Below, piece by piece: positions 3,482 through 22,598 of a DNA stretch of 22,598 nucleotides. The DNA comes from a virus. Where the stretch lies: IMG/VR virus record IMGVR_UViG_3300035698_007082, positions 1 through 22,598 of that record; one strand, given 5' to 3'. A model generated the notes under the pieces. That model had not been told where the DNA came from, did not search any database, and worked only from the letters and a program-made list of their open reading frames with translations. The translations under genes and the position numbers were made by a program. Each line of letters begins with the position of its first letter. Within the stretch, counting starts at the first letter, position 1.

Positions 3482-3482
3482 T

Positions 3483-3684
3483 TCTTAGTGTTTCAGGTAG
3501 TTTGGCTACGAAGGTTGGCACTGTCTGCGCTATCTCTTGTCAGCGCCACTTTAATGGATGTGGTTGTTTCAATTTCCCCGCTCCTAGCCCCTAGATAGGG
3601 GCGAGGACGGGAGGTATAGGGATGATTCTTATGCTTATGCTGGTTATGCTGGTTCTTAGTCTTTTTACTCTTAAAACACTAAGA
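3483..3684 (+). ncRNA. Candidate structured RNA element closed by an 11-bp helix
   Basis: Bases 3483-3493 (TCTTAGTGTTT) are perfectly complementary to 3674-3684 (AAACACTAAGA). Inside are further helices: GTAG/CTAC near 3498-3510, TGGC-A-CTG with CAG-C-GCCA (about 3516-3548), CCAC/GTGG, and a GC-rich hairpin at 3577-3611. The region lies between a methyltransferase and an aaRS-like gene and has no large ORF on either strand. I match it to no known family: T-box, tmRNA, tRNA, hammerhead and twister signatures were not found. It could be a leader, a trans-acting RNA or a processed transcript. The helices are read by eye; no folding energy was computed. Confidence 0.4.
3577..3611 (+). promoter_or_regulatory. 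GC-rich hairpin touching a ribosome binding site
   Basis: CCCG (3577-3580) pairs with CGGG (3608-3611), TCCT (3582-3585) with AGGA (3604-3607), and GCCCC (3587-3591) with GGGGC (3598-3602). That gives 13 base pairs with one bulged C, one A-G mismatch and a six-base loop TAGATA. The 3' arm contains the GGG of the SD sequence GGGAGG (3609-3614) serving the small ORF at 3622, so folding could limit translation. No U-run follows, so it is not an ordinary terminator. Confidence 0.5.
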
Positions 3685-3708
3685 TTGTCACTTAGTTCCA
3701 GAATTTGA
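3622..3708 (+). CDS. Possible 28-aa hydrophobic peptide
   Basis: ATG 3622 is preceded by GGGAGG with 7-nt spacing, and the frame runs 28 codons to TGA 3706-3708. The peptide begins MILMLMLVMLVLSLFTLK and ends in a basic, serine-rich tail. Ten of 28 residues are leucine, and the first 17 could span a membrane. It resembles in form small membrane peptides such as type I toxins, or a leucine-rich leader peptide. Tandem TTATGCTGG repeats (3635-3652) generate the Met-Leu-Val runs. The codons from 3674 on overlap the 3' arm of the long-range helix, so translation and folding would compete. There is no homology evidence and it may not be expressed. Confidence 0.3.
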   Translation: MILMLMLVMLVLSLFTLKTLRLSLSSRI

Positions 3709-3734
3709 CTACTTATTTTTAAAAAAGGTAATAT
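3705..3734 (+). promoter_or_regulatory. Candidate sigma70-type promoter
   Basis: TTGACT (3705-3710) and TAATAT (3729-3734) are separated by 18 bases of A/T-rich DNA. This is close to the bacterial housekeeping consensus and well placed to transcribe the aaRS-like gene at 3885 and the operon after it. The implied transcript would have a leader of about 140 nt containing the hairpins at 3792-3871. AT-rich sequence yields such matches by chance, so confidence is modest. Confidence 0.35.
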
Positions 3735-3791
3735 TTTTTAGAAGCATGTCTTTTATACGATTATAGCAGATTTGACGTATGATTATGTAGG

Positions 3792-3813
3792 ACACGGGGA
3801 ATTTTATCCGTGT
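3792..3813 (+). terminator. Hairpin in the leader of the aaRS-like gene (weak terminator or regulator)
   Basis: ACACGG (3792-3797) pairs with CCGTGT (3808-3813), extendable by one G-U pair. It is followed by TATTATTAT, a T-rich but interrupted tract. It could be a weak intrinsic terminator or an attenuator upstream of the gene at 3885. Two more small hairpins follow: ATCGTC/GGCGAT around 3829-3845 and GATGC/GCATC at 3856-3871, the latter ending 2 nt before AAGGAG. CCTT near 3847-3850 could also pair with the AAGG of that SD. Confidence 0.35.
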
Positions 3814-3884
3814 TATTATTATAAAAAGATCGTCTATATGGCGATTCCTTTAATTGATGCCAGAGAGCATCGGAAGGAGTATTT

Positions 3885-4883
3885 ATGTCGGTTGTAGAAA
3901 GATTGGGACTACACAATAAAGTAGTCAATGCTATCAGGGGATTTTTGTCAGAAAACAAGTATATTGAGGTGCCAGTGCCTGGGTTGACTCCAGCAACTGG
4001 ATCATGCGAAGTTGTTGATTCTATGTTTAGCTTGGATTATTTTGGAGCATTAGCATTTCCTCGTCAGACTGGACAGCTTTATCTGGAAGAATTACTTGCT
4101 ATGCATGATGAATTTGATGGTTTGTATTGCGAAGGAGAAAGTTTTAGACGCGAACAAAAAGTAGATGATAGGCATTTGACAGAATTCAAGCTAATTGAGG
4201 TAGAGAAAAGGAATATGACTTTGCCTGAATTATGTGATTTACAAGAGAATCTATTGAGATATGTGATGATGTATTCTGTAAGTGATGAGGAATTGGCAAA
4301 TGCTATCCTGAACAAAGGACAGGCACATCCTCGTATTACATATCGAGAAGCAATTAAGATTTTGCGTGATAAAGGATCTAAAATCAAGTTTGGAGATGAT
4401 TTAGGAAATGATGAAGAAACTGCTTTGGTCTTGCATTGCGGGAATATACCAATTCATATTACGCATTTCCCAGAAAGTCTAAAGTTTTTCAACATGAAAA
4501 TCGATAGACATGATCCAGAGGTTGTTGTATGCTCTGATTATATCATGCCAAATTCTGGAGAGACTTTTGGCAGTTCTTTAAGGGAACCAGATGTAGACAT
4601 TCTGGGTAAGAGATTATATGAGGGGACAATGTACGAGCACCTAATGTCTAGAGTAGATGCATTTGCTGATTTGCATAATATAAAACAAGAGGAATGTGCG
4701 TCATCAATCAATAGGGCATTTGAACGGTATTTAGATCTGTTTAGGAATAAAAACATAGAACGGGCCGGTTTTGGTTTGGGAGTTGCTAGATTGTTACAAT
4801 ATTTGGCAAAAGCAAAATCAGTAAAAGACGTTGTACTATTCCCTATGGACCGTACACGATATGGACATATTGCGGTACAGTAA
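3885..4883 (+). CDS. Stand-alone class II aaRS-like catalytic core (AsnRS/asparagine synthetase-related)
   Basis: A 332-residue protein with the class IIb aminoacyl-tRNA synthetase fold. Motif 2 is FRREQKVDDRHLTEF (residues 87-101), with the invariant FRxE and RHLxEF. QLYLEE lies just before it. Motif 3 is GFGLGVARL (295-303) with its ATP-binding arginine. These most resemble asparaginyl/aspartyl enzymes. The N-terminal OB-fold anticodon-binding domain is absent: motif 1 begins within about 25 residues of the start. Stand-alone cores of this kind include archaeal asparagine synthetase-related enzymes, and EpmA is a lysyl counterpart, so the product may make asparagine or attach an amino acid to something other than ordinary tRNA. 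The start has AAGGAG 5 nt upstream. The long structured region before it suggests control of expression. Fold assignment is firm; substrate is inferred. Confidence 0.85.
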   Translation: MSVVERLGLHNKVVNAIRGFLSENKYIEVPVPGLTPATGSCEVVDSMFSLDYFGALAFPRQTGQLYLEELLAMHDEFDGLYCEGESFRREQKVDDRHLTEFKLIEVEKRNMTLPELCDLQENLLRYVMMYSVSDEELANAILNKGQAHPRITYREAIKILRDKGSKIKFGDDLGNDEETALVLHCGNIPIHITHFPESLKFFNMKIDRHDPEVVVCSDYIMPNSGETFGSSLREPDVDILGKRLYEGTMYEHLMSRVDAFADLHNIKQEECASSINRAFERYLDLFRNKNIERAGFGLGVARLLQYLAKAKSVKDVVLFPMDRTRYGHIAVQ

Positions 4884-4900: not shown

Positions 4901-5488
4901 ATGGTTTTTAATATTCAAGAATTTGAACAACCTGGGCAACAATCATATGACAATATTAGTGTGTTACTAAATATTGCTCGCAACAATAATATTGTTTCAT
5001 TTCTAGAAATAGGTACATCATCTGGTATGTCGTTAATGGCGCTGGTTGAATATCTTACTTACGAAAAAAACAAACCATTAAAGTTTGTAGTTGTTAGCGA
5101 TACATGGGGTGGAGTTCATGGAGGAACCAATTATGGTAGTCATGACTTTGTTCTAGAACTGCTAGAACCATATACTGAAAATGGATTAGATGCTGTTTTT
5201 TTGGATGGAGAATCACAGATAGAGATACCTAAATTTGCAGGCAGTACGGACAAAACATATGATTTAATTCACGTTGATGGATTACACACGTATGATGGAT
5301 GCCGTGCTGACGTTAAGAATTGTCGTAGCCTACTAAAAGATGATGGCCTTATGGTTGTAGATGATACTCATCATCATGCCCATATGGAATTAGTTCAATG
5401 TATGAAAGATATTTGTGCAGAAGATGGTTTTAGTTGCATATATAAAACAGATCATGGAACAGGTGCAACTGTATTGCAAAAATCATAG
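4901..5488 (+). CDS. Class I SAM-dependent methyltransferase (Methyltransf_24-like)
   Basis: A 195-residue Rossmann-fold methyltransferase. Motif I is FLEIGTSSGMS (residues 34-44). The later strand and metal-like site YDLIHVDGLHTYDG (120-133) and VVDDTHHHAH (152-161) match the Methyltransf_24 group, in which related members act on small molecules or sugars, often with a divalent metal. The histidine run after DD is notable. AAGGAG precedes ATG 4901, and the gene starts 17 nt after the aaRS-like gene, so they are probably co-transcribed. The substrate is unknown. It is not a DNA methyltransferase by motif. Confidence 0.8.
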   Translation: MVFNIQEFEQPGQQSYDNISVLLNIARNNNIVSFLEIGTSSGMSLMALVEYLTYEKNKPLKFVVVSDTWGGVHGGTNYGSHDFVLELLEPYTENGLDAVFLDGESQIEIPKFAGSTDKTYDLIHVDGLHTYDGCRADVKNCRSLLKDDGLMVVDDTHHHAHMELVQCMKDICAEDGFSCIYKTDHGTGATVLQKS

Positions 5489-5509
5489 CAAAAACAATAT
5501 GGAGGATGT

Positions 5510-6055
5510 ATGCAATTACTGACATATGGCCACAGCATTTTGAGGGATAAGACAAAAAAAGTAGAATCTATTTCAGAAGAAATTATAGAAACTATTGTTG
5601 AAATGTATAAAACTATGTATGAGTGCAAAGGTAAAGGATTGGCAGCAAATCAAATTGGTGTTTCATTGAATATAATTACTATTGATAATAGTACACAGAA
5701 TAATCCAGAAGTTCCGTTATCAATGATTAACCCAGAGATTGTTTCGCATAGTGCAGATACAAAATTAGAGACAGAAAAATGTTTGAGTTTACCACAAATT
5801 AAATGCACCGTTCCACGTTGGACAAGCATTCAAATTGCATATACCGATGTAAGCGGGGAACTTATTGAGGCCAAAAACTTTAAAAGCAGCGTAGCAAGAA
5901 CGATCCAGCATGAAGTTGACCATCTTGATGGTAAATTAATTATAGACTATGTTCGTGGGATAAAACGCAATATGCTAACAAATAAGCTGAAGAGAATACG
6001 GAGGAAAATTAATGGGAATAGATTTCTTTGGGGAGAACAAGAAGAAGAAAAATAA
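5510..6055 (+). CDS. def: Peptide deformylase
   Basis: A 181-residue peptide deformylase, which removes formyl groups from N-terminal methionine of new proteins. All three family motifs are present: GKGLAANQIG (41-50, consensus GxGLAAxQIG), EKCLS (89-93, consensus EGCLS) and QHEVDHLDG (133-141, containing HExxH). Metal ligands are C91, H134 and H138, with catalytic E135. The glycine of EGCLS is lysine here, a change next to the metal cysteine that could alter substrate preference. Phage-encoded deformylases are known and are thought to speed maturation of phage or host proteins during infection. GGAGG precedes ATG 5510. Its 3' end overlaps the next gene by 44 nt. Confidence 0.95.
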   Translation: MQLLTYGHSILRDKTKKVESISEEIIETIVEMYKTMYECKGKGLAANQIGVSLNIITIDNSTQNNPEVPLSMINPEIVSHSADTKLETEKCLSLPQIKCTVPRWTSIQIAYTDVSGELIEAKNFKSSVARTIQHEVDHLDGKLIIDYVRGIKRNMLTNKLKRIRRKINGNRFLWGEQEEEK

Positions 6056-6857
6056 CGAGCCTTCAAAACCGTTTGATAGCTTTTTTAATGCTAGTGGTAC
6101 GCCACCAGCGGATGCAGATTTACCGCAAAATTTAGAAGACGAAAAACGCAATCTTAAAGATGATAAGCATGTATCGTTTCGTCCAGAGGCAAACCGTGCA
6201 TATCATAAACTAGTAAAGTTGTTCAAAGATTCAAAAGTGCAGTTTAATTCATCTAATGCACCTCCATTAATGCCTTTGTCTCCAGACATTATTAAGTTTT
6301 TGATTGGAAATAATGTATTTGAAAAATTTTGTTTCGATCTTGGCAATAACGATTATAATATAGACCATAAAGACCTTACTGCAGAATCGTTTATGAAGAT
6401 GTCAACAGATGAACGTAACGCTGCTTTTGCGGCCACAATGCTAAGGACGTTAGCGCATGTAATGAATGCTATGTATGAAGTTTTTGAACCAGATACAGAT
6501 TTAGAGATGCAATTACTATCTATTGTTTCTACATATGAAAATATCTTGTATAATACAAGAACTACGTTATCAATGCAGGCAAACTTTTTAGCAGATCCTA
6601 GCTGTGAGCTTAGTATGGAAACTTTAGCTAACCTATCTAGTGCTTTAGAGTCCAATATAAAAGAAGACGGTACAGTAACATTAGATTCAGATAGTGTGGC
6701 AGTATTGAAAAGTGTATTTGCAAGATTTGTGGATATTAGCGCTATAAATCAAACAGCAGCAGAAACAATAGGACATCAATTGACAGAACAATATAAAGTT
6801 CATAAAGACGTGTTAAAGGCTTTGAAAATAAAAAGAGGGAAAAATAAAGATGTATGA
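6012..6857 (+). CDS. Hypothetical protein, 281 aa
   Basis: I recognise no family. ATG 6012 has GGAGG 7 nt upstream (5999-6004 region) even though this lies inside the deformylase gene. The first 70 residues are polar, proline- and lysine-rich and probably disordered (FFGENKKKKNN, then acidic and basic runs). From about residue 75 to the end the protein is predicted helical, with no membrane segment, signal peptide or cysteine cluster (two cysteines only). Its end overlaps the next gene by 8 nt. It may be a structural or adaptor protein. Confidence 0.75.
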   Translation: MGIDFFGENKKKKNNEPSKPFDSFFNASGTPPADADLPQNLEDEKRNLKDDKHVSFRPEANRAYHKLVKLFKDSKVQFNSSNAPPLMPLSPDIIKFLIGNNVFEKFCFDLGNNDYNIDHKDLTAESFMKMSTDERNAAFAATMLRTLAHVMNAMYEVFEPDTDLEMQLLSIVSTYENILYNTRTTLSMQANFLADPSCELSMETLANLSSALESNIKEDGTVTLDSDSVAVLKSVFARFVDISAINQTAAETIGHQLTEQYKVHKDVLKALKIKRGKNKDV

Positions 6858-7203
6858 TCCATACGAGAATTTTGAATCACGTGTACGCTTGGTTGCTAGC
6901 GAAATGGCTGCATTGTTGATTGAAAAAAATAGATGTTATGGTAATAGTGCACTGAATCCTGTACGCATTTTTTCTAAGGCAGACACAAAAGAACAGCTAT
7001 TTGTGCGATTAGATGATAAATTAAGTCGCATTGCTAGAGGCAAAGAATTTCCTGGTGACGATACAGTACGCGATATCATTGGCTATTGTTTTTTAGTTTT
7101 AATTCAGTTAGAAAACGAAGAAAAAAATACAGAACAAAAAGACATATCTCAGAAAGATCTATTTTTAAAGATGAATAATATAAATAGTGGAACCAAATCA
7201 TAG
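6850..7203 (+). CDS. Nmad1/DUF1599-like protein (nucleotide modification-associated)
   Basis: A 117-residue, mostly helical protein. The pattern LIEKNRCYGNSALNP (residues 23-37), then RLDDKLSRIARG (52-63) and DTVRDIIGYCFLVL (70-83), matches as I remember it the Nmad1 (DUF1599) family: Kn-x-YG near the N terminus, R-x-x-DK-x-x-R in the middle and Dt-x-x-D-x-x-gY at the end. That family occurs in phages near DNA-base modification genes and has an all-helical MazG-like fold, suggesting nucleotide binding or hydrolysis. The start has AGAGGGA upstream and overlaps the previous gene by 8 nt. The next gene is a nucleotidase-like phosphatase, which fits nucleotide-pool work. Family call is moderate; activity is inferred. 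Confidence 0.65.
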   Translation: MYDPYENFESRVRLVASEMAALLIEKNRCYGNSALNPVRIFSKADTKEQLFVRLDDKLSRIARGKEFPGDDTVRDIIGYCFLVLIQLENEEKNTEQKDISQKDLFLKMNNINSGTKS

Positions 7204-10785: not shown

Positions 10786-10814
10786 TTTACCAATTTATAT
10801 CTGCCTTTTATACT
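10786..10814 (+). promoter_or_regulatory. Candidate promoter for the head module (TTTTATAC motif)
   Basis: TTTACC (10786-10791) and TATACT (10809-10814) are spaced by 17 nt, a fair sigma70-type match. The second element lies within TTTTATAC (10806-10813), which recurs in two other gene-start gaps (3751 and 16601). This is the only gap of note between the early-type genes and terminase, so a promoter is expected here. It could instead be read by the phage's own sigma-like protein. Confidence 0.4.
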
Positions 10815-10884
10815 TATTTTCATTAGATACGTTCTATTGTATAGGATACAGCTATGTTCTGTATTCCGTAAGGAAAGGTATCTA

Positions 10885-11706
10885 GTGGAAACAAAAAAAC
10901 ACATTCCTCAAGCTTTAAAACCTACCAAACACCAGCTCAAAGAAGCCGATGAATTACTGCGGCCATTTTTTGAGCATAATCCTGGTCGTCTTAAAACTAG
11001 GGCTGGCGTAGTTTCAACTATTGATGAAAAAATTCAAAGCATTCTTGATAAAGCAATTGCTGGATATTCTAATTGCCCAAAAACGTTTATGGGTAGGATT
11101 AAATCAATTACTAGACTTAGTGCTGGTGGTAAAAAATCTAGAGCTAAAGACAATTATTATAATGCTAGAGAACGAAAACTAGAAGAACAGTTAAAAGAAC
11201 GTGAACAGGAAAATTATCCTGGTATAAGCGCTAAAGAACTTAGAAAAATACTTAGTGATAACGAACGTAAGTTTATGGCAGAACGTGAACGATTTTATAG
11301 GTCTGAATTTGATTTTAATAATTCTGCAGATCAAGCTCTATTGACGCAAGCTCTCACAGAAGAGGTTGTGCAACATAGACTAGTTAAGCGTAAATTATCT
11401 GGTGAGGAAACACCCGAGCTAGAGAGTGCTATGGAGGCTAGTTTCAAGCGTATGGAGCGGGCACTAAAGGCACTAGGCATCACACGCGAACAGCGTGAAG
11501 GTGCCTCAATGGAGTCTGAGGGCAATATAGCGCAGCTATCATTGCTTGTTGAGCAAAAGCTCAAAAAAATTGACGCAATAAGAGAGAAAGATCGGCAGGT
11601 AGAGGTTGCATTATTGGCCGGACGAAAAAGTCCAGAAATACTAGATATATTACCTGATTCATTAAAAGACATTGTTAGAAAAGCTCAATTAACGGAGGAC
11701 TATTAA
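10885..11706 (+). CDS. Probable terminase small subunit
   Basis: A 273-residue charged, helical protein directly upstream of the large terminase gene, with a TAATG junction. Small terminase subunits bind the packaging site and load it onto TerL. Position, helical content, a basic N-terminal half (for example GGKKSRAKDNYYNARERK) and the motif ALKALGITREQRE near residues 205-217 are consistent with this role, but no helix-turn-helix is certain. GTG 10885 is chosen: AAGGAAAGG precedes it by 6 nt, whereas the TTG 48 nt upstream has no SD. Coiled-coil stretches (about 90-150 and 225-250) fit an oligomeric ring. Another packaging accessory protein remains possible. Confidence 0.6.
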   Translation: METKKHIPQALKPTKHQLKEADELLRPFFEHNPGRLKTRAGVVSTIDEKIQSILDKAIAGYSNCPKTFMGRIKSITRLSAGGKKSRAKDNYYNARERKLEEQLKEREQENYPGISAKELRKILSDNERKFMAERERFYRSEFDFNNSADQALLTQALTEEVVQHRLVKRKLSGEETPELESAMEASFKRMERALKALGITREQREGASMESEGNIAQLSLLVEQKLKKIDAIREKDRQVEVALLAGRKSPEILDILPDSLKDIVRKAQLTEDY

Positions 11707-13331
11707 TGTCCCTTAAAAAACAGTCTGCTAGAACAAGCAAACTTGATGAGTTTAGATTAACAAAACATGAACAAACGATTATGTTTTATAGGAGAGATCC
11801 TGTTGAGGCGTGCAGAGATATTCTTGGTAGAGAACCTACGTGGTTTCAAAGAATTTTGTTACGGGAGCTATGGGATAAACCCTACTGCCTATTGAAGTAC
11901 GGCCGAGGAGCAAGCAAGACGAGTTCGGTCGCTATGTATCTTCTTATGAAGGCTGCGTTGTATCCAGATATGCGTATAGGCGTTTTAGCGCCGTCATATA
12001 GGCAAGCACAATACGTATTTGACGAAATTGATGACTTATACGCTAATAGTCCGTTCATTAGGGCGGCAGCAATAAAAGCTCCTACGCGAGGAACTGATCG
12101 TGCAATAATAAAATTCCATAATAGATCTTTCATTGAAGGTTTGCCAATAGGTAAACAAGGTGCCAAAATTAGGGGTAGACGATATGTTTTAGTCTTCATT
12201 GATGAATATTCTCAAATGGATGAAGAAACCGTTAGGCTCGTAATCCGTCCTATGCTTGCAGTTATGAGGCATGGTCGTAGAAATCAGATTATTCGTGCGT
12301 CTTCACCATTCTATAAGGAAGTCGCTCGTCATTTCTATGAGGCTTATCTTAGACATAAAGAACTAATGGAGGCTGGCAATGAAGACTATCATTGCTCATC
12401 ATTTAATTTTATTGATGTTTTGCTAGATAATCATAAAGATTATCGTCCAGATCTCAATATGGTACAAGAAGCATATTCAGAAGATCCTGAAGATATTTTT
12501 TGTATGGAATGGTTAGGTACTTTTCCTGACGAATCAACTGGATTCTTTTCCAGTAGACTAATCGACAGCTGTACTCCTCGTGGTGTACGCGACATAGTGC
12601 CGCTTGAACCACGCGGAGAACCTGGCTATAAATATGTACTAGGAATTGATCCTGCTAGATCCGCACAAGGCGATTTATTCGCGATGGTTATTATTAAAAT
12701 TTTAAAGAACGGTACTAGACATATCGTTAAGATAGTTACTGGTAAAGGAATTAAATTTCCTGATATGACAAATATGATTAGAACAGAAGTATTTTTGAAT
12801 CAGTTTGATATACAAGCTATATATATGGATTCCAGAGGTGGCGGTAAAGAACTTCAGGACTTGTTAGAAGCACCGTGGATTTATAATGGAACCACTTATC
12901 CTGGCATTACATCTGTTTACCAAGAAGAAATACTTGGATTTTATGATGTAGAAACCCATACTAACGAACACCGTATTTTGCGTATGGTTGATTTTAACGT
13001 ACAAATGATTAATGATATGTATTTTAAATTTAAATCTTGTATGGAGCGACAGGCATTATTATTCCCAATTGATTTGAGGCGCGGTGAAGACGAAACGTTT
13101 GAGACTGTTGGCAAAGAAGTTATTGCGCTAAAACATGAAATGTTAGTTTTACAAACAAAGGCAGTCGCAAATGGTCTAAGATTTGTTGCTCCAAAACAAT
13201 TTTCTAAAGATAGAATTACTGCTGCTGTATTAGCTAATTTTGCGGCAAATGAAATAGATGATAATAATATGAGTCAACAAGATAGTATAGCTCTTAACGC
13301 AATGTTAAATGTTGGAGGTTGGGTAAAATAA
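11706..13331 (+). CDS. terL: Terminase large subunit (TerL)
   Basis: A 541-residue packaging ATPase and nuclease. Walker A is GRGASKTS (residues 66-73), Walker B is VLVFIDEYSQ (161-170, D166/E167), and IIRASSPF (195-202) fits the coupling motif. The C-terminal RNase H-like nuclease domain begins at YVLGIDPARSAQGD (310-323, D315) and includes AIYMDSRGGGKE (371-382, D375). It pumps genome DNA through the portal and cuts it. GGAGG precedes ATG 11706, which overlaps the stop of the previous gene (TAATG). Length is typical. The large serine of classical SAT-type motifs and finer subgroup were not resolved, so the packaging mode cannot be predicted. Confidence 0.95.
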   Translation: MSLKKQSARTSKLDEFRLTKHEQTIMFYRRDPVEACRDILGREPTWFQRILLRELWDKPYCLLKYGRGASKTSSVAMYLLMKAALYPDMRIGVLAPSYRQAQYVFDEIDDLYANSPFIRAAAIKAPTRGTDRAIIKFHNRSFIEGLPIGKQGAKIRGRRYVLVFIDEYSQMDEETVRLVIRPMLAVMRHGRRNQIIRASSPFYKEVARHFYEAYLRHKELMEAGNEDYHCSSFNFIDVLLDNHKDYRPDLNMVQEAYSEDPEDIFCMEWLGTFPDESTGFFSSRLIDSCTPRGVRDIVPLEPRGEPGYKYVLGIDPARSAQGDLFAMVIIKILKNGTRHIVKIVTGKGIKFPDMTNMIRTEVFLNQFDIQAIYMDSRGGGKELQDLLEAPWIYNGTTYPGITSVYQEEILGFYDVETHTNEHRILRMVDFNVQMINDMYFKFKSCMERQALLFPIDLRRGEDETFETVGKEVIALKHEMLVLQTKAVANGLRFVAPKQFSKDRITAAVLANFAANEIDDNNMSQQDSIALNAMLNVGGWVK

Positions 13332-15280: not shown

Positions 15281-15793
15281 GTGGATATCGTTACTAAGTT
15301 TGCTAAATTTATAGTTGGGCGTAGTGATCTCGTAAAGAATGGTTGTAAAGTAAGTGATGGTCGTTCTAATTTTAAAGTATTACGAGATCTTACAAATAAA
15401 TTAGAAAATCATCAAATGGAATACAATAACTTACAGCAAATGCATTGTGCGTTTGTAAAAAACAAGGACAATGTTATTATGATGACAAGACCAGATGGAT
15501 CGATTGCGTATATAAGCATGAACTGTAAGGACTTGCTTGGGTATACATGGCAGGAAATGACAACAATGAAATGTAGTAATCTATCTGAATCACCAATCAT
15601 CCATAAAGATGATATTGACATGATAAAAGTAAAATTAGAAGACGCAATTAATGGTAAAAGCGGTAGTAATTTACAATACAAAATAATCACAAAATCAGGT
15701 GAAACTAGAAAAATAAAACATTCTTGGGCACCATTATTTGTTGATAAAGAAATGTATTTGATATCGAGCGTATTCTATGAAATTCCATTATAG
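15281..15793 (+). CDS. Stand-alone PAS-domain protein
   Basis: A 170-residue protein whose C-terminal 110 residues form a PAS domain. The order is NVIMMTRPDGSIAYISMNCKDLLGYTWQEM (about 64-93), HKDDIDMIKVKLEDAINGK (108-126), YKIITKSGETRKIKH (133-147) and SSVFYEI at the end, as in canonical PAS/PAC sequences. The N-terminal 50 residues include a likely coiled coil. There is no kinase, GGDEF or DNA-binding domain. PAS domains sense ligands, redox state or light, or mediate protein contacts, and finding one between portal and protease genes is unusual. AGGAGG (15263-15268) precedes GTG 15281 by 12 nt; an in-frame start at 15245 would lie inside the portal gene without an SD. The gene begins 22 nt after portal. 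Confidence 0.85.
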   Translation: MDIVTKFAKFIVGRSDLVKNGCKVSDGRSNFKVLRDLTNKLENHQMEYNNLQQMHCAFVKNKDNVIMMTRPDGSIAYISMNCKDLLGYTWQEMTTMKCSNLSESPIIHKDDIDMIKVKLEDAINGKSGSNLQYKIITKSGETRKIKHSWAPLFVDKEMYLISSVFYEIPL

Positions 15794-15819
15794 AAAAGTA
15801 ATGTCTAGGAGGCTATATA

Positions 15820-16071
15820 TTGTCGAGCAAAGAGCATCCAAAATTGCCGTCCGATGGAAACGGATGGACAATATGGGGAAAACATATATTATTGGAATTG
15901 GAACGTCAAGATAGATGTGCTATAGCGCTTACCATAGTAGTTAATAAATTACAAATAGAAAATGCTGTTCTTAGAATAAAATCTGGAATTTGGGGCGTAA
16001 TAGGTGCATCAATTCCTATTTTGATAGCATTTATATTATGGCTAATAAAATCTAATGTTTTAATTAAATAG
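15820..16071 (+). CDS. Small one-TM membrane protein (holin/XhlA-like topology)
   Basis: An 83-residue protein starting at TTG 15820, supported by AGGAGG (15807-15812) 7 nt upstream. It has a soluble N-terminal half with a helical or coiled-coil segment (about 24-54, LLELERQDRCAIALTIVV) and one transmembrane helix near the C terminus (about 56-77, GIWGVIGASIPILIAFILW). This layout resembles XhlA-type and other small phage membrane proteins often listed as holins, but no lysis gene is adjacent, so a membrane anchor or exclusion role is equally possible. It follows the PAS gene by 26 nt and precedes an exported protein. Confidence 0.75.
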   Translation: MSSKEHPKLPSDGNGWTIWGKHILLELERQDRCAIALTIVVNKLQIENAVLRIKSGIWGVIGASIPILIAFILWLIKSNVLIK

Positions 16072-16087
16072 TAAAGGAGGAATTTTG

Positions 16088-16573
16088 ATGCAGCTAATAA
16101 GATTTTCATTTTTAATTGTATTTTGTGCCATGCTTTGTGGCGCAGCATATTTGAACGCTATTGAACCAAGTCAAGTATTAACTGCTAGTGATCAAGCTCT
16201 ATATGAGTCACAGCGACACGGTACGATGAGCGTATCTGCTAATATAGATGCTGGTTGGGATACTGTATTAGTGACTATAAGTTCTACTTGGGCAAGTAGA
16301 ACCACCATTAAGAATTTTTTGCAATCAGGATACAATCTAAGATCAATTGCAATATGTGCTCCTGTAATACCGTGTAGTGTAGCGTGGTTTGCAGATGGTA
16401 TAAATTGTAAATATGCAGATATTGACTCATTCTTTACGTGTATTGGCTCTGGTAGTACTGCTACCATTGTTGAGTTTACGTCTGTAGACTCATTTGATGT
16501 ATGGTCTGCCACTACTGGCAGTACCGCATATGTCTATGTTAGGGCGTATAGACCAATTGCTACTGCTCCATAA
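16088..16573 (+). CDS. Exported protein with signal peptide, unknown function
   Basis: A 161-residue protein. The first 24 residues form a signal peptide (MQLIRFSFLIVFCAMLCGAA, then YLNA) with a likely cleavage after the alanine at 24. The mature part is Ser/Thr-rich, predicted beta, and contains four cysteines (C90, C96, C107, C118) that could form disulfides outside the cytoplasm. A lipobox is not convincing. AGGAGG lies 7 nt before ATG 16088. It closes the three-gene insertion between portal and protease. It may be an exclusion or envelope-interaction protein; no family is recognised. Confidence 0.8.
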   Translation: MQLIRFSFLIVFCAMLCGAAYLNAIEPSQVLTASDQALYESQRHGTMSVSANIDAGWDTVLVTISSTWASRTTIKNFLQSGYNLRSIAICAPVIPCSVAWFADGINCKYADIDSFFTCIGSGSTATIVEFTSVDSFDVWSATTGSTAYVYVRAYRPIATAP

Positions 16574-16600
16574 TCAGTTAATATGCACTAAATATATGTA

Positions 16601-16609
16601 TTTTATACT
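16601..16609 (+). promoter_or_regulatory. TTTTATACT motif before the protease gene
   Basis: TTTTATAC (16601-16608) plus T matches the sites at 3751 and 10806 and includes a -10-like TATACT. It lies 55 nt upstream of the protease start, in an 82-nt gap, and could be a promoter that restarts transcription of the head genes after the inserted trio. No good -35 is seen at the usual spacing, so it might be read by the phage's own sigma-like factor. The gap at 18273-18314 has a related TATTATAC (18278-18285). Confidence 0.35.
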
Positions 16610-16655
16610 TTTGAAATATAGTTAGCGTTCTGATACTAGAAAGGAGTGGTTGAAT

Positions 16656-18272
16656 TTGCAAAAATCTTATGAGAATGTACGCGACGAATACATAGAAAGA
16701 AAGAAAAAAGATAAAGGTAGTGTATCCAAAAAAGACATTGCCGCCTGTAAAAAACAAGCTGCCATATGGTATTACGGAGAATATGGTAAACCTGTTAAGC
16801 ATATTGCTAACAAGATTGTTCTCGATAAGGACAATATTCCACTGCGTGATTTAGCTGCTGTTATGAATATAAGTGATAATTATGAGGTATCTATAGATCT
16901 TTCAGAAAAAGACATAGCAAGTATAGAAATTGACAATGCCAGAGCGGCACGTTGCACTTATTTTGCAGCTGCTAATGTTCGTGCCGGTAACACTTTAGCA
17001 GAAGTATTAGATACTCCTGACGAAATTAATGAATGTCAATCTGCTATGGCAAGAATTGTTGACGAAGCTATAGAAGAAGATAAAATAAACGACGGTATTG
17101 AACGAGATACAATGGTTCCTGATGATCAGGCATCAAAACAAAAAGACCTTATGTACGTGTCGTTTAAGCTGGTTCATGTTGGTGGAAACAAAAATAAAGA
17201 TTTCTTTTTAGAAGAAGAATTGATTTCTTCTCAGTTTACTCCACAGCTAAAACCATTGGATTGGGAACATGGAGAACCAAATATTGGTACCATGTATCTA
17301 AGCAAATATATTCCAGAAACAGCAAATGAACCAGGACACATTAAGTGTGCTACTGTTGTCTATAAATGGAAATATTCACAATATGCCAATGAAATGTTAA
17401 AAAGATACGATAACGATCAACTATTCTTTAGTATGGAGACATGGTTTACTGAATTTGAATGTTCTGCATGCCATAATATATATTCATATAAAGACTATGA
17501 CGTATGCAGCCATTTAATGGAGCGTTTTACTGAAGGCAATGAAACCTACAGGGTTTTGCACAACTTAATATTTGCCGGAGCTGGTGTTGTGGAACACCCA
17601 GCGGACACATTAGCCGACAGCATTAGCGTTGCGCATATAGTTGGCAATCCCAACGAAAAGGAGGGGAAAGATAAAATGGAAGTTACATATACTGAAGATC
17701 AGCTCAATTCTTTGATTGAGGCTAAGACCACTCTAGTACAGAATGATCTCAAGGCTTCGGCTGACGATTTGAATGATCTTAAGGAAAAACATGAAACATT
17801 AGCTACTGAAAACGATCAGTTGCGTAGTGATCTTGATGCTATTACCAAGCAGCATAGTGAGCAAACAGACAAACTTAAACAAGTAACAGATGAATATGCT
17901 ACGTTTAAGGGAGAAATTGAGAGCACCAAACGTTTGGATAGTCGTATTTCAGAGCTAACTAATCTTGGCTTTACTCTTCCGACAGACGAAACTGAAGCGG
18001 AAACTTTCGTTGAGAAGCTACGCAACGCTGATGAAGATTCATATGATTTGATTCGGCAGACAGTTTCTATGTCTGTACCGGTAGTTAAGCAAGAAGAATC
18101 TGATCCAAATGTTACCAGCGAAACAGAAGCTGATGACAATGAAATTGACGATAGCGAAACTTTAGAAGAAACAGATGAAAGTAAACCTGAAGTACCACTT
18201 GGGGCTAGTTCACAAAACCCCACAGATGCATTGTCAATTGCGCAGAATAAGATCAAAGAAATCTTATCATAA
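16656..18272 (+). CDS. Probable prohead protease with fused scaffold
   Basis: A protein of about 538 residues. The central part resembles phage prohead proteases: LDWEHGEPNIGTMYLSKYI (about 202-220) supplies a candidate catalytic histidine at about 205 and LFFSMETWF (256-264) a serine at about 259. These proteases cleave scaffold and capsid during maturation. Just after the serine, CSACHNIYSYKDYDVCSHL holds C-x2-C-x11-C-x-H, a likely zinc-binding insertion. The C-terminal 200 residues form a long acidic coiled coil that fits a scaffold. AAGGAG (16641-16646) is 9 nt before TTG 16656 but only 3 nt before TTG 16650, so 16656 is preferred. The function is inferred from order (portal, protease, decoration, capsid) and the two motif segments; alignment would settle it. 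Confidence 0.72.
   Translation: MQKSYENVRDEYIERKKKDKGSVSKKDIAACKKQAAIWYYGEYGKPVKHIANKIVLDKDNIPLRDLAAVMNISDNYEVSIDLSEKDIASIEIDNARAARCTYFAAANVRAGNTLAEVLDTPDEINECQSAMARIVDEAIEEDKINDGIERDTMVPDDQASKQKDLMYVSFKLVHVGGNKNKDFFLEEELISSQFTPQLKPLDWEHGEPNIGTMYLSKYIPETANEPGHIKCATVVYKWKYSQYANEMLKRYDNDQLFFSMETWFTEFECSACHNIYSYKDYDVCSHLMERFTEGNETYRVLHNLIFAGAGVVEHPADTLADSISVAHIVGNPNEKEGKDKMEVTYTEDQLNSLIEAKTTLVQNDLKASADDLNDLKEKHETLATENDQLRSDLDAITKQHSEQTDKLKQVTDEYATFKGEIESTKRLDSRISELTNLGFTLPTDETEAETFVEKLRNADEDSYDLIRQTVSMSVPVVKQEESDPNVTSETEADDNEIDDSETLEETDESKPEVPLGASSQNPTDALSIAQNKIKEILS
17676..18272 (+). CDS. Nested in-frame scaffold protein (internal start within the protease gene)
   Basis: ATG 17676 is in the same frame as the protease gene and is preceded by a strong SD (AAAAGGAGGGG, 17657-17666). 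It would yield a 198-residue C-terminal product, mostly an acidic coiled coil (LNDLKEKHETLATEN, SDLDAITKQHSEQ, DKLKQVTDEYATF), ending in an acidic disordered tail and QNKIKEILS. The arrangement equals lambda C/Nu3, where the scaffold is the C-terminal part of the protease gene made from an internal start. The SD to ATG spacing of about 9-11 nt is slightly long. The scaffold assignment follows from the arrangement and composition. Confidence 0.6.
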   Translation: MEVTYTEDQLNSLIEAKTTLVQNDLKASADDLNDLKEKHETLATENDQLRSDLDAITKQHSEQTDKLKQVTDEYATFKGEIESTKRLDSRISELTNLGFTLPTDETEAETFVEKLRNADEDSYDLIRQTVSMSVPVVKQEESDPNVTSETEADDNEIDDSETLEETDESKPEVPLGASSQNPTDALSIAQNKIKEILS

Positions 18273-18314: not shown

Positions 18315-18893
18315 GTGTTAGAAATTAAAGCTGTTGATACTACACAACGCGAAGGTCGTGGGTATATTTTCTGTGGTTCAGATGGTCTGAATCAGGGTAA
18401 GTTTCTAAAACTTAATGGCGCGTTTACTTGGGATGCTGGTCCGACTGCCTATGCGGGCAAGCCTGGCTATGCTTCATCTGGTGGACAAAGATATGATGCT
18501 GCTACTAGTGGTGATGATATCGCTACCGCAGTATATCCATTTAAGAGATATCACTATACGGCTGAAGATGGCGACGTAACTCTAGATACTGCAGTTTCCG
18601 GTCAGGAAGTTGTCGTATACAAGGGTGGCGAATTTGAAACAGATCAGTATGGTACAGGTATCACTATTGCACTAGTTAATGCTGCCACTATTGCTGTTGG
18701 TAGATTACTTTATCTAGATGCTGATTCACAATTGGTAACTGGTTTCGATGCAGATAACCGTGTACCGCGTGCTATGTTCTTGGGCTTGGCATCTACGTAT
18801 AACTCTAGTTATGCGGCCAAGGCAATGATGTGGTTCCGTATGCTACCGCAGCCGCAGATTCCTAGTGGTTGGGGACAGAAACTAGTGACCTAA
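18315..18893 (+). CDS. Probable capsid decoration / head stabilisation protein
   Basis: A 192-residue Gly-, Ala- and Thr-rich, predicted beta protein directly before the major capsid gene. Such small proteins in this place are usually decoration or head-stabilising proteins, as with lambda gpD. AAGGAGG precedes GTG 18315 by 9 nt. It uses more GC-ending codons than the early genes, as the capsid gene does, which fits high expression. No signal peptide or cysteine cluster is seen. A head-fibre protein is an alternative. I see no sequence family that decides this. Confidence 0.6.
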   Translation: MLEIKAVDTTQREGRGYIFCGSDGLNQGKFLKLNGAFTWDAGPTAYAGKPGYASSGGQRYDAATSGDDIATAVYPFKRYHYTAEDGDVTLDTAVSGQEVVVYKGGEFETDQYGTGITIALVNAATIAVGRLLYLDADSQLVTGFDADNRVPRAMFLGLASTYNSSYAAKAMMWFRMLPQPQIPSGWGQKLVT

Positions 18894-18936
18894 AGTATAT
18901 AATTATTATTGTTTGATGCGAAGGAGGTTAATAAAT

Positions 18937-19857
18937 ATGAGTAAACGGCGCGTTCTCACAAGTGAGGAAGTGCGTGAATTTGGGCAAGCTATGGCATCCG
19001 TCGATTGGCGTGATGCTGCAGCTCGGCGTGCAATTGCAGATACTATCGTAACCGATGTCCGTGAGGATATCGAACGCGATGATCTAATCCGTCTACTTGG
19101 TGCTGATGTACAGTATTTTGACGAAGGTCAAAGCGTACAATTCCGTACCAAGAAAGGGATGAAGGCGTATGTGCATACACCTGGTTCTTATGCTCCTCGA
19201 TCAACGATGACCACTAACACGGTTGTACTTACAACTGAATTAGTATCTGTTCATCCAGAAATCGAGATTGGGCAACTAAAATCGGGTCGTTACGGCTCTG
19301 TTCAAGACATTAAAACTGAGGCCATAAATGAGCTACAGGGACACCAGTATGCTACATTGTGGAACACTCTACGTGGCTCTGTCGCAGACAGTGCCGCTAA
19401 TGACTTTTCAGTGGCTAGTACAGATACTGCTGCCGTAAAGAAAGTTACTCTTGATTCTGGTGTAAATTATGTTGCCGATCAACCAGGTAGCGACGTTGTT
19501 GCTATCGTTGCTCGTCGCAGTGCACTAGGATTCTTGCAGGATTATTCTGCCTACAGTACATATGGTCCATCTGATAAGCTCAGAACTGATTTAGACAGTT
19601 CACCATTTGTAAATAGTTATCGCGGCATCCCAGTTATTATGCTAAATCAGTATTCTGATGGTTATGGCATTAATCGTATTGACGCTGGTTCAATCATGAT
19701 TATTGGTAAAGATACAATCAAGGTTGGCATTGATCGTCCAGTCGATTATGAGGAAGGTATCGAAATCGATACCCTCATGTGGCATTACCACATTTTCATG
19801 AAGTACGGCGTGGCTGTGGTTGAACCACTCCGCAATGCTGAAGTTCGGATTACTTAA
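18937..19857 (+). CDS. Major capsid protein (HK97-fold)
   Basis: A 306-residue protein in the standard position after protease/scaffold and decoration genes. An N-terminal charged helical arm (EEVREFGQAMASVDWRD, AADTIVTDVREDIERDD-like region) may be trimmed by the protease. The rest shows alternating strands and helices typical of capsid proteins, including a beta-rich P-domain-like stretch (GKDTIKVGIDRPVDYEEG) and a final segment MWHYHIFMKYGVAVVEP, which matches the usual C-terminal strand of HK97-type capsids. ATG 18937 is chosen because AAGGAGG (18921-18927) precedes it by 9 nt; the in-frame ATGs at 18913-18919 have no SD. The gene is richer in C- and G-ending codons than others here, consistent with a very highly expressed protein. 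A strong hairpin follows. Confidence 0.85.
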   Translation: MSKRRVLTSEEVREFGQAMASVDWRDAAARRAIADTIVTDVREDIERDDLIRLLGADVQYFDEGQSVQFRTKKGMKAYVHTPGSYAPRSTMTTNTVVLTTELVSVHPEIEIGQLKSGRYGSVQDIKTEAINELQGHQYATLWNTLRGSVADSAANDFSVASTDTAAVKKVTLDSGVNYVADQPGSDVVAIVARRSALGFLQDYSAYSTYGPSDKLRTDLDSSPFVNSYRGIPVIMLNQYSDGYGINRIDAGSIMIIGKDTIKVGIDRPVDYEEGIEIDTLMWHYHIFMKYGVAVVEPLRNAEVRIT

Positions 19858-19873
19858 TATATCTATATATGGA

Positions 19874-19898
19874 TTGAGGGGGATTTATTCCCCCTCAA
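19874..19898 (+). terminator. Strong hairpin after the capsid gene
   Basis: TTGAGGGGGA (19874-19883) pairs perfectly with TCCCCCTCAA (19889-19898) over 10 bp with a five-base loop TTTAT. The following TTCTAACCTT has only a few T residues. It may be an intrinsic terminator with some readthrough into the glycosyltransferase gene, or a 3' stabiliser of capsid mRNA. It lies 16 nt after the capsid stop. Confidence 0.65.
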
Positions 19899-19931
19899 TT
19901 CTAACCTTACAATAGGAAAAGGAGAAAAATT

Positions 19932-22229
19932 ATGGAAAAGGCAAAGAAAACTGATAGAAAGATTAAGCTGCTCTGGTGTTCAGATTCACCGACAGTCTCT
20001 ACTGGTTTTGGTAGGGTCGGCAAAGAAATAATTACACGACTTCTAGAAACTGGCAGATACGAAGTTATTGTACTTGGAACCAACGATAGGGGAGACCATC
20101 ACCCCATGCGCGCAATGAAAGACCTAGTAATCGAGCCATTACCGTATATTACCGAAGACCCATATGGTCAACGAAAGCTTCCTGAGATACTTAAGAAATA
20201 TAATCCAGACATTGTGTTTAGCCTAAATGATATTTGGGTATGGACAGCAGATGAACGTCATCGTGAACAGCTGCATTGGTTTCTCAAGCATCTTAGGGCA
20301 CACAAACCTTATATTCCATGGGTTGGATATTATTGCGTAGATGGCAGACCCTGGGCTCCATTGTGGACAGACATTGTAAACAACATGACATTTGGCGTGG
20401 TATATTCAGATTACGGTTATAATGTAATGAAAGAAACGCTAAATATGGACATGAATAAAATTCGTAAAATTTATCACGGATCTAGTTGCGATAAGTTTTT
20501 CCCTCTTCCAAAAGAAAAGACATTAGCTAAAAAAAAGGAAATGGGAATAGCAGAAGATACATTCCTAATGGGAATTGTAGCTCGGAACCAACCACGTAAG
20601 GGGCTCCCTCGTCTTATACAGGCATTCAAAATGTTCAAAGATGGTTATGTTGTTTGTAGGACATGTGGATATCCTCGTAGTCCTGAATTAGCAACTAATT
20701 GTGAAAACTGTGGAGACAAAGCAATTAGTGAGGCAATTTCTGGACATAAAGATTCAGCGCTATACTTACATATGAATGTTTTGGATATGCGCGGTTTTAA
20801 ATTGCCAAAAATTATTAATGATAATAAAGCAACAGGAATTGTTACTAGACCAGGACATAACGTAGGTTCCGGTGTTCCGATTGAAGAACTTAATGAAATT
20901 TACAATGCTATGGATACTTTTGTGTTACCGACACTGGCTGGGGCGTTTGAATTGCCCTGCATTGAAGCTCAAGCTGCTGGAACTCCTGTAATCGCTACTA
21001 GAACTACGGCAGTTACAGAATTATTGGAAAACGGCAAAGGCTATATGGTCACTCCTGAATCTCCCATTATTCTAGAAGACGCTAATCATTGTCACAAGCA
21101 TTTAATTGATACGCGAGGACTTATTGATGCAATGACAATGGCCTATCATGATTGGAAAGACAACACAGATAGACGTAAGAAAATTATTGAAAAGGGCATT
21201 GAGGCTGCGAACACCAAAAACTGGGATGAACCAGCACGTCAATTTGATGAGCTGTTTCAAGAAGCACTGAAAACACGTCAACCATTAGACGAACTATTAA
21301 TTAACACTGAAAATGCTAATGATTTATCAACTGGTCACAACATTATATTCACCATTGAAGACGATAGCCTATCAAAATGCCTTACAATAATGCCATCAAT
21401 TGTAGAATACAAAAAACATAATCCTAAAATAAACGTTATTATTGCAGCTAAGAATAGTCTATTGCCTGTACTAAGTGAAATTAAAGATATATCCACAATT
21501 GATATATCTAGATTATGGATAGATGATGCAAAGTTGGCTGGCAAACGATTTTCAATGAATTCTATAGATGGTATTCCCAACAGATATGAGAATGGTACAA
21601 TTCCTTATCCAGAAAAGTCATGGACAAGACTGTATTGCGAAGCATTAAGTACGCCAATAAACGAGATTATTGATTATACCATAACAGAAGATGAGAATAA
21701 AACAGCTATTGGTTTATATGAAAAAGATAAATACAAGGTCTTAATTATGCTTGGCGATAATAATGCAAATACTACGCTAAGACCAGACGTATGGAATAAA
21801 ACGTATAATTTCTTAGGTAATTACAAAGATATTTCATGCAAAATAACTGGACCAAATAGCGTGTTACAAAATATTGATTGTGACGGAAAAATACACGATG
21901 TAAATCATAGACAGCTTATCGCTTTGGCAAAAAATGCAGATTGTGTAATGGTTACAGATGATAAACTATTATTGATTGCTAATATATTGCCAGATACTAT
22001 GTTTGTGTCTATAGATTCTGTAAGAAACAATAAGCACAACATCTTGCATGACAACGTTCAATATGTAAATACTTCAGCTAGATTTGCGTGTTCGCCATGC
22101 TGGAAAAAACTTGAAGATTCTTGTAAAATGAGTAAAAATATTAGGGCGGCCTGCACAGAAGCAACTAGTCCTGCAGAAATATTCTCAAAGATTTTACGTA
22201 TTAAAAAAAATCAACAGAAAAAAACATAA
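19932..22229 (+). CDS. Two-domain glycosyltransferase (GT4-like fused to GT9-like)
   Basis: A 765-residue protein. The first 460 residues form a GT-B fold glycosyltransferase of GT4 type: WCSDSPTVSTGFGRVG (15-30), ARNQPRKGLPRLIQAF (217-232) and FELPCIEAQAAGTPVIA (339-355), which binds nucleotide sugar. A zinc-ribbon insertion with C242, C245, C257 and C260 follows the ARNQPRKG strand. From about 465 a second domain resembles GT9 (heptosyltransferase type): IIFTIEDDSLSKCL-like start, KVLIMLGDNNANTTLRPDVW (about 610-630) and a final CSPCWKKLEDSCKM...C stretch. AAAGGAG precedes ATG 19932. Being next to the capsid gene, it may decorate virion proteins, DNA or host surface. No metal DxD or acceptor can be read with confidence. 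Confidence 0.8.
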   Translation: MEKAKKTDRKIKLLWCSDSPTVSTGFGRVGKEIITRLLETGRYEVIVLGTNDRGDHHPMRAMKDLVIEPLPYITEDPYGQRKLPEILKKYNPDIVFSLNDIWVWTADERHREQLHWFLKHLRAHKPYIPWVGYYCVDGRPWAPLWTDIVNNMTFGVVYSDYGYNVMKETLNMDMNKIRKIYHGSSCDKFFPLPKEKTLAKKKEMGIAEDTFLMGIVARNQPRKGLPRLIQAFKMFKDGYVVCRTCGYPRSPELATNCENCGDKAISEAISGHKDSALYLHMNVLDMRGFKLPKIINDNKATGIVTRPGHNVGSGVPIEELNEIYNAMDTFVLPTLAGAFELPCIEAQAAGTPVIATRTTAVTELLENGKGYMVTPESPIILEDANHCHKHLIDTRGLIDAMTMAYHDWKDNTDRRKKIIEKGIEAANTKNWDEPARQFDELFQEALKTRQPLDELLINTENANDLSTGHNIIFTIEDDSLSKCLTIMPSIVEYKKHNPKINVIIAAKNSLLPVLSEIKDISTIDISRLWIDDAKLAGKRFSMNSIDGIPNRYENGTIPYPEKSWTRLYCEALSTPINEIIDYTITEDENKTAIGLYEKDKYKVLIMLGDNNANTTLRPDVWNKTYNFLGNYKDISCKITGPNSVLQNIDCDGKIHDVNHRQLIALAKNADCVMVTDDKLLLIANILPDTMFVSIDSVRNNKHNILHDNVQYVNTSARFACSPCWKKLEDSCKMSKNIRAACTEATSPAEIFSKILRIKKNQQKKT

Positions 22230-22327: not shown

Positions 22328-22598
22328 ATGATAATAATGCAAAAATACATGTTGATTTTATGCATCATGTTATTAGCATTAGCGTGTTCAGTAACTGCAT
22401 CTATGGTTCATGTGTATGATCCTGTTGGAACTCCTACTGATTTATCTACTTTAACTGATGTCACTTTATCAGCAATTGCTAATGGTGATATTTTATATTA
22501 TAATAATAGCGTGTGGAATAATCTGCCCAAAGGAGATAATGGGAAAATATTAAAAATGGTTGGCGGATTAGCAGCATGGGGTACTGATGATACCGGAA
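22328..22598 (+). CDS. Exported fibre-like protein (partial, runs off the window)
   Basis: The frame is open from ATG 22328 to the window end, at least 90 residues. It begins with a signal peptide (QKYMLILCIMLLALACSVTA, cut probably after the alanine before SMVH). The mature part reads DLSTLTDVTLSAIANGDILYYNNS and WNNLPKGDNGKILKMVGGLAAWG in two adjoining pieces, a pattern I associate with phage tail-fibre and virion proteins (xLxDVTLxxxxNGDILxYN-type repeats). A signal peptide on such a protein is odd. GGAAGGA (22319-22325) is close to ATG 22328 and 11 nt before ATG 22337, so either may be the start. The 98 bases before it hold nothing else I recognise. Confidence 0.7.
   Translation, partial: MIIMQKYMLILCIMLLALACSVTASMVHVYDPVGTPTDLSTLTDVTLSAIANGDILYYNNSVWNNLPKGDNGKILKMVGGLAAWGTDDTG

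Follow-up and report, generated by a model that had tools for sequence, protein, structure and literature searches.

Two described phage systems come closest to the locus considered here. In phage T4 the holin T, a membrane lysis protein, is regulated by a cue-responsive partner, the antiholin RI, which is periplasmic and senses superinfection. XhlA (PF10779) of the PBSX lysis cassette is a small protein with a helical, soluble N-terminal part followed by one C-terminal membrane segment, and we know of no sensor partner for it. It is described as a membrane protein that is predicted to cooperate with the holin XhlB; vesicle release required all three of xhlA, xhlB and xlyA (PMC5589764). The window, i.e. 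the whole stretch of DNA analyzed here (a 22.6 kb virus record from IMG/VR), encodes a small membrane protein (gene 2) of similar layout to XhlA, directly preceded by a PAS protein (gene 1). Both parallels are to be taken as likenesses in how the proteins may work: in contrast to T and RI, the sensor would here be a cytoplasmic PAS, cupin or GAF protein, and no sequence relation to that system is seen in Pfam or PHROGs. The phage sensors share their folds with bacterial PAS_3 and Cupin_2 sensor proteins, but differ from them in standing alone before a membrane protein and in having an added N-terminal motif, SN[LI]EKLRELTxxLP.

The genes lie in the head run of the phage, which reads terS, terL, portal, three extra genes, protease/scaffold, decoration-like gene and capsid (Table 1). 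The extra genes are plus-strand ORFs, each with a good ribosome-binding site. Bacillus phage Staley, a Slashvirus, and Microcystis phage MaeS show the same terS-terL-portal-protease-small protein-capsid order, with terL proteins ~31% identical to that of the window; in both, however, portal and protease adjoin and none of genes 1-3 is found there. The three are thus an addition relative to these named phages, which bears out the claim of an interrupted head-gene order in the sequence-only reading. A pattern scan for conserved motifs of terL recovered only Slash-like and MaeS-like contigs, and scans for close relatives with the terL, PAS and exported proteins gave no match. The one relative found, L114 (IMGVR_UViG_3300009285_002417), is identical to the window phage at 46% of positions in terL, 41% in portal, 35% in protease and 54% in capsid. 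Between its portal and protease it encodes a gene 2 homolog (112 aa, NGWNEWSKYVLRELERL), with neither gene 1 nor gene 3 present; hence, gene 2 forms the core at this site, with a variable presence of the sensor and exported proteins. The proposed three-gene cassette accordingly holds insofar as all three genes are real, but not as one unit: the recurrent pair consists of genes 1 and 2, and gene 3 lies outside it. The protease gene of L114 (5164-7101) is in two adjacent frames (5266-5742 and 5746-7101), as against a single ORF in the window, and represents either two genes or a frame break.

Table 1. Coordinates of the head run, genes 1-3 and associated elements in the window
Feature	Position	Strand	Remarks
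Third TGNNTTTTATAC	3747..3758	+	within the 403-nt gap that precedes the synthetase-like gene
Second TGNNTTTTATAC	10802..10813	+	closely precedes terS; the transcript ending with genes 1-3 is proposed to start here
terS	10837-11706		small-subunit role from weak profile matches and from alignment and gene order with Staley and MaeS
terL	11706-13331		
portal	13369-15258		
Gene 1, PAS sensor-type protein, 170 aa	15281..15793	+	GTG start; Shine-Dalgarno TAGGAGG at 15262
Gene 1 helix motif LRDLTNKL, residues 34-41	15380..15403	+	from the table of 25 upstream proteins; within predicted helix 27-60
Gene 1 PAS fold, residues 76-153	15506..15739	+	Pfam
Gene 2, small tail-anchored membrane protein, 83 aa	15820..16071	+	TTG start; Shine-Dalgarno TAGGAGG at 15806
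Gene 2 N-box WTIWGKHILLELER, residues 16-29	15865..15906	+	conserved box of the family
Gene 2 transmembrane segment, about residues 58-76	15991..16047	+	19-residue hydropathy of 2.3, starting at residue 58
Gene 3, predicted exported protein, 161 aa	16088..16573	+	signal-peptide-like start (predicted), four cysteines after it
Promoter-like TGNNTTTTATAC, gene 3/protease gap	16597..16608	+	TTTTATAC at 16601-16608; TTTATACTTT in the equivalent gap of L114
protease/scaffold	16650-18272		role from weak profile matches and from alignment and gene order with Staley and MaeS
decoration-like gene	18315-18893		as for protease/scaffold
capsid	18913-19857		as for protease/scaffold
Strong hairpin after capsid gene	19871..19901	+	MFE -23.7 kcal/mol, z -4.1

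On its Pfam match gene 1 is a true PAS protein, as its earlier description as PAS sensor-like had implied: PAS_3 is matched with E 5e-9 and 36.8 bits, above the gathering score of 25.6. This assignment rests on the profile match because the structural evidence is weak: the model, made from seven alignment rows, has a pLDDT of 54, and its Foldseek matches are mostly PAS structures but at E 0.003 or worse and with rmsd near 12 A.

Gene 2 codes for a protein with one strong C-terminal transmembrane segment, as previously noted, and belongs to no named family in Pfam or PHROGs. A degenerate DNA pattern for its LRIKSGIWGVIG stretch, run on IMG/VR, returned 63 stretches, nearly all of which code for small proteins of one form: W.EW.K.VL.EL.RL ... 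EIA.LKVK[SA]G[IV]WG.[IL]GG.IP. The N-terminal half of these proteins aligns even though the pattern did not select it, and a second IMG/VR scan with the N-terminal box alone returned 37 stretches, again of the same family. The family has 63 distinct proteins in IMG/VR; duplicate contigs were removed by membrane-protein similarity only, and genes in the relatives were called by a simple script. Gene 2 scores 71 bits against a profile of relatives built without it, is 43% identical to the L031 protein, and displays all the features by which we define this LKVKSGIWG family, viz. the N-box, a coiled middle, the [LI]xK[SA]GxWG stretch and the C-terminal membrane segment. A search of 257 Gb of bacterial and archaeal genomes with the N-box pattern gave no match, nor did an alignment scan, and the family has no credible match in 50,697 named phages or in plasmids, a result from which a low-complexity filter may hide some members. 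As far as the searched collections show, this is a gene of uncultured, probably virulent phages.

Despite the similar layout, gene 2 could not be assigned to XhlA: PF10779 does not match it and reaches 1 of 20 relatives at E 0.27, the PHROG hemolysin family is reached at E 0.13-0.21 only, and the XhlA-type setting of adjoining holin and endolysin genes is not seen among the scanned window proteins.

Many members of the gene 2 family adjoin head genes (portal, protease, capsid) rather than lysis genes. In L013, L019, L021 and their kin, for example, the membrane gene lies between a ~552-aa gene, which resembles a terminase in L013, and a ~610-aa gene that is probably portal. Such neighborhoods, along with the location between portal and protease and the same placement of gene 2 in L114, could be taken to mean that we are dealing with virion or morphogenesis parts, in which sensor-like domains serve as structural folds made together with the head proteins. 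The phyletic pattern is at odds with this: L114 has neither gene 1 nor gene 3, and none of the three is present in MaeS or Staley, so that the genes do not recur at the same place in all relatives, as head proteins would. Further, domains that bind ligands, such as cupin, PAS and GAF, are uncommon as head components, and a tail-anchored membrane segment would be odd for a non-enveloped particle. We therefore regard a role in the virion as improbable.

The genes preceding the gene 2 relatives show a characteristic pattern. A sensor-type gene lies directly upstream of the family gene in 26 distinct cases including the window (each distinct membrane protein is counted once; L129 stands in for L125, which is truncated, and L132, also truncated, is added), with 7 PAS, 14 cupin, 2 GAF and 3 short versions without a sensor domain, as assigned from Pfam totals and from reading of the sequences. 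Across 58 upstream proteins, Pfam detects Cupin_2 in 11, PAS_3 in 6 and GAF_2 in 2. Among 130 control genes located farther off on the same contigs no PAS or cupin family has two or more matches in the 25 of 61 families listed, so that a single match is possible. Sensor and membrane genes are separated by at most 2 nt in 23 of the 26 pairs and usually overlap. The window is an exception in that its genes 1 and 2 neither overlap nor abut, being 26 nt apart, but it conforms to our definition of the pair in having a sensor-type gene directly upstream that carries [LI]xx[LIM]TxxL. No upstream sensor is recognized for roughly half of the membrane genes, that of L114 among them, and no significant link is seen between the N-box and sensor presence (p 0.44).

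The unrelated upstream folds have in common the SN[LI]EKLRELTxxLP motif, which is usually near the N-terminus and in one case lies between a receiver-like part and a cupin. Within residues 1-60, its core is found in 17 of the 58 upstream proteins as against 1 of 287 control genes (Fisher 1e-13), and it also occurs in 53- and 66-aa proteins devoid of a sensor fold. In the PAS protein of the window it reads SNFKVLRDLTNKLEN and falls within the helix that is predicted best in an otherwise weak model. L130:3782-4546, in a 159 kb contig, directly precedes a membrane-family gene and links a receiver-like N-terminal part to a cupin via LRxLTxxL. Given that the motif is common to PAS, cupin, GAF and bare proteins, all of which precede the same membrane protein, it is best read as a docking helix, the likely partner of which would be the conserved N-box. 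In L037 and L043 the sensor has a degenerate motif and the membrane protein lacks a clear N-box, a pattern that fits the docking reading in these two cases.

Since the upstream sensors recur and share a motif that is also present in the PAS protein of the window, genes 1 and 2 appear to constitute an undescribed modular pair of sensor and membrane anchor, and we consider it very probable that the two are functionally paired. The literature searched for PAS, cupin or sensor-linked lysis proteins of phages yielded no paper on this topic. One might instead see the PAS gene as a moron, i.e. a chance acquisition with only an incidental adjacency to gene 2: it is absent from L114, is set apart from gene 2 by 26 nt with no overlap, and is slightly AT-richer than its neighbors (the base composition of genes 2 and 3 does not mark them as foreign). 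This would, however, leave the PAS, cupin and GAF genes preceding gene 2 relatives in many unrelated phages, and the motif that the window protein shares with them, as coincidences, and we give it little credence.

Gene 3 is predicted to be exported, in keeping with its earlier characterization as a secreted cysteine-containing protein (Table 1). It has no relatives in Pfam, PHROGs, phages, the IMG/VR scan or the loci of the relatives. It was also considered as a virion beta-sandwich protein, but comparison with the proteins in the loci gave nothing convincing and we treat it as an orphan; a single-sequence AlphaFold model was unusable (pLDDT 48). Gene 3 is thus outside the recurrent unit and figures as a separate accessory in the scheme proposed below.

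The organization of transcription appears to set the three genes apart from the protease and capsid genes. The plus-strand copies of TTTTATAC (at 3751, 10806 and 16601) are intergenic in 3 of 3 cases and all read TGNNTTTTATAC, with non-coding sequence amounting to only 5% of the window. When the other gaps were shuffled, 17 of 5000 trials yielded at least two further copies of TTTTATAC, and none of the 5000 yielded the longer form TGNNTTTTATAC in two or more gaps. If the 8-mer is not specified beforehand, one of this kind turns up by chance in 37 of 300 shuffles, and hence the 8-mer alone is modest evidence. In L114 TTTATACTTT is present at 5094 in the gap between gene 2 and protease, as the only exact copy in L114; the window has TTTATACTTT at 16602. 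Scans for sigma-70 promoters and terminators gave sites no more numerous than in shuffles. As judged by these repeats, TTTTATAC is promoter-like, and the earlier suggestion that head transcription restarts after the three genes is supported: genes 1-3 would close the terS-terL-portal unit and a new capsid unit would start after them. The protease-to-capsid transcript probably ends at the hairpin that follows the capsid gene (19871-19901).

Taking these observations as a whole, we favor, with some reserve, the explanation that genes 1 and 2 exemplify a modular phage system of two genes, in which a sensor docks on a membrane protein, most likely for the timing of lysis. The genes themselves, the gene 2 family, its repeated association with sensors, their common motif and the retained location of gene 2 in L114 are observed; physical docking, an N-in topology, a sensed cue and the control of lysis are what we infer. 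The cytoplasmic sensor (a PAS protein in the window and, in other phages, a cupin, a GAF protein or a short version without a sensor domain) would use its LRxLTxxL helix motif to dock on the cytoplasmic N-box helix (GWxEWxKxVLxELxRL) of the membrane protein, itself held N-in by its one C-terminal transmembrane segment. Docking would be altered by a ligand, metal or redox cue, and the assembly state of the membrane protein would shift with it, by which lysis would most likely be advanced or delayed. The unit would be the last part of the terS-terL-portal transcript, at its 3' end, with the putative new promoter for protease and capsid immediately downstream. The earlier idea of signal sensing coupled to action at the envelope thus survives for genes 1 and 2, on the strength of the PAS, cupin and GAF genes upstream in many unrelated phages and their shared motif, with no such support for gene 3.

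Control of lysis as the output is our tentative best guess, prompted by the late-operon position, the XhlA-like tail-anchored layout and the endolysin-like genes near a minority of the members. An endolysin-like gene is located within 2.5 kb in 8 of 62 loci of relatives, a count that is biased in that most seeds come from the same neighborhoods; in L052 the order is cupin, membrane protein, receiver and lysozyme. Among the scanned window proteins there is no endolysin or holin match in Pfam or PHROGs. A different output, proposed in the sequence-only reading, is superinfection exclusion, or host takeover more generally, in which the membrane protein would block a second phage or alter the envelope and the sensor would tune this to the state of the cell. 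Membrane location, small size, spread over unrelated phages and a variable sensor partner would all fit; but such genes are usually early or expressed from prophages, whereas the pair sits in a late head operon, and the N-box pattern is without a match in bacterial genomes. Nor did any PADLOC model match genes 1-3 or their relatives at E 0.1 or better. We hence consider exclusion or takeover unlikely.

Outside the head run, the window encodes several enzymes. A class II aminoacyl-tRNA synthetase-like protein (3885-4883, 332 aa; tRNA-synt_2 E 7e-37, residues 5-322) seemingly consists of the catalytic domain only, and no tRNA genes are present in the window. It is preceded by a 403-nt gap (3482-3884) in an otherwise packed region, which contains G+C-rich inverted-looking parts and one TGNNTTTTATAC; its best Rfam match, PyrR, is far below threshold (29 versus a gathering score of 54 bits). 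A phage-encoded peptide deformylase is at 5510-6055 (E 5e-44). An NAD-dependent epimerase followed by a radical SAM/SPASM protein (63-2022) and a glycosyltransferase (19932-22229) suggest sugar or peptide modification by the phage. The ORF running off the end of the window (22328-22598) has a signal-peptide-like start and then a fiber-like segment, with weak matches to tail fiber families.

If the favored explanation of genes 1 and 2 is correct, they would represent a phage sensory system absent from the searched libraries and literature, in which one membrane effector family is served by swappable receptors. It would be spread over many unrelated phages, none of them represented by a prophage or isolate in the searched collections. 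We offer it as a tentative proposal that, in many uncultured phages, PAS, cupin or GAF receptors may plug via a common helix into a common membrane effector, such that the redox, metal or metabolite state of the host would set the time at which the envelope is opened. The sensing of host physiology by virulent phages for the timing of a late step would thereby become testable with two small proteins.
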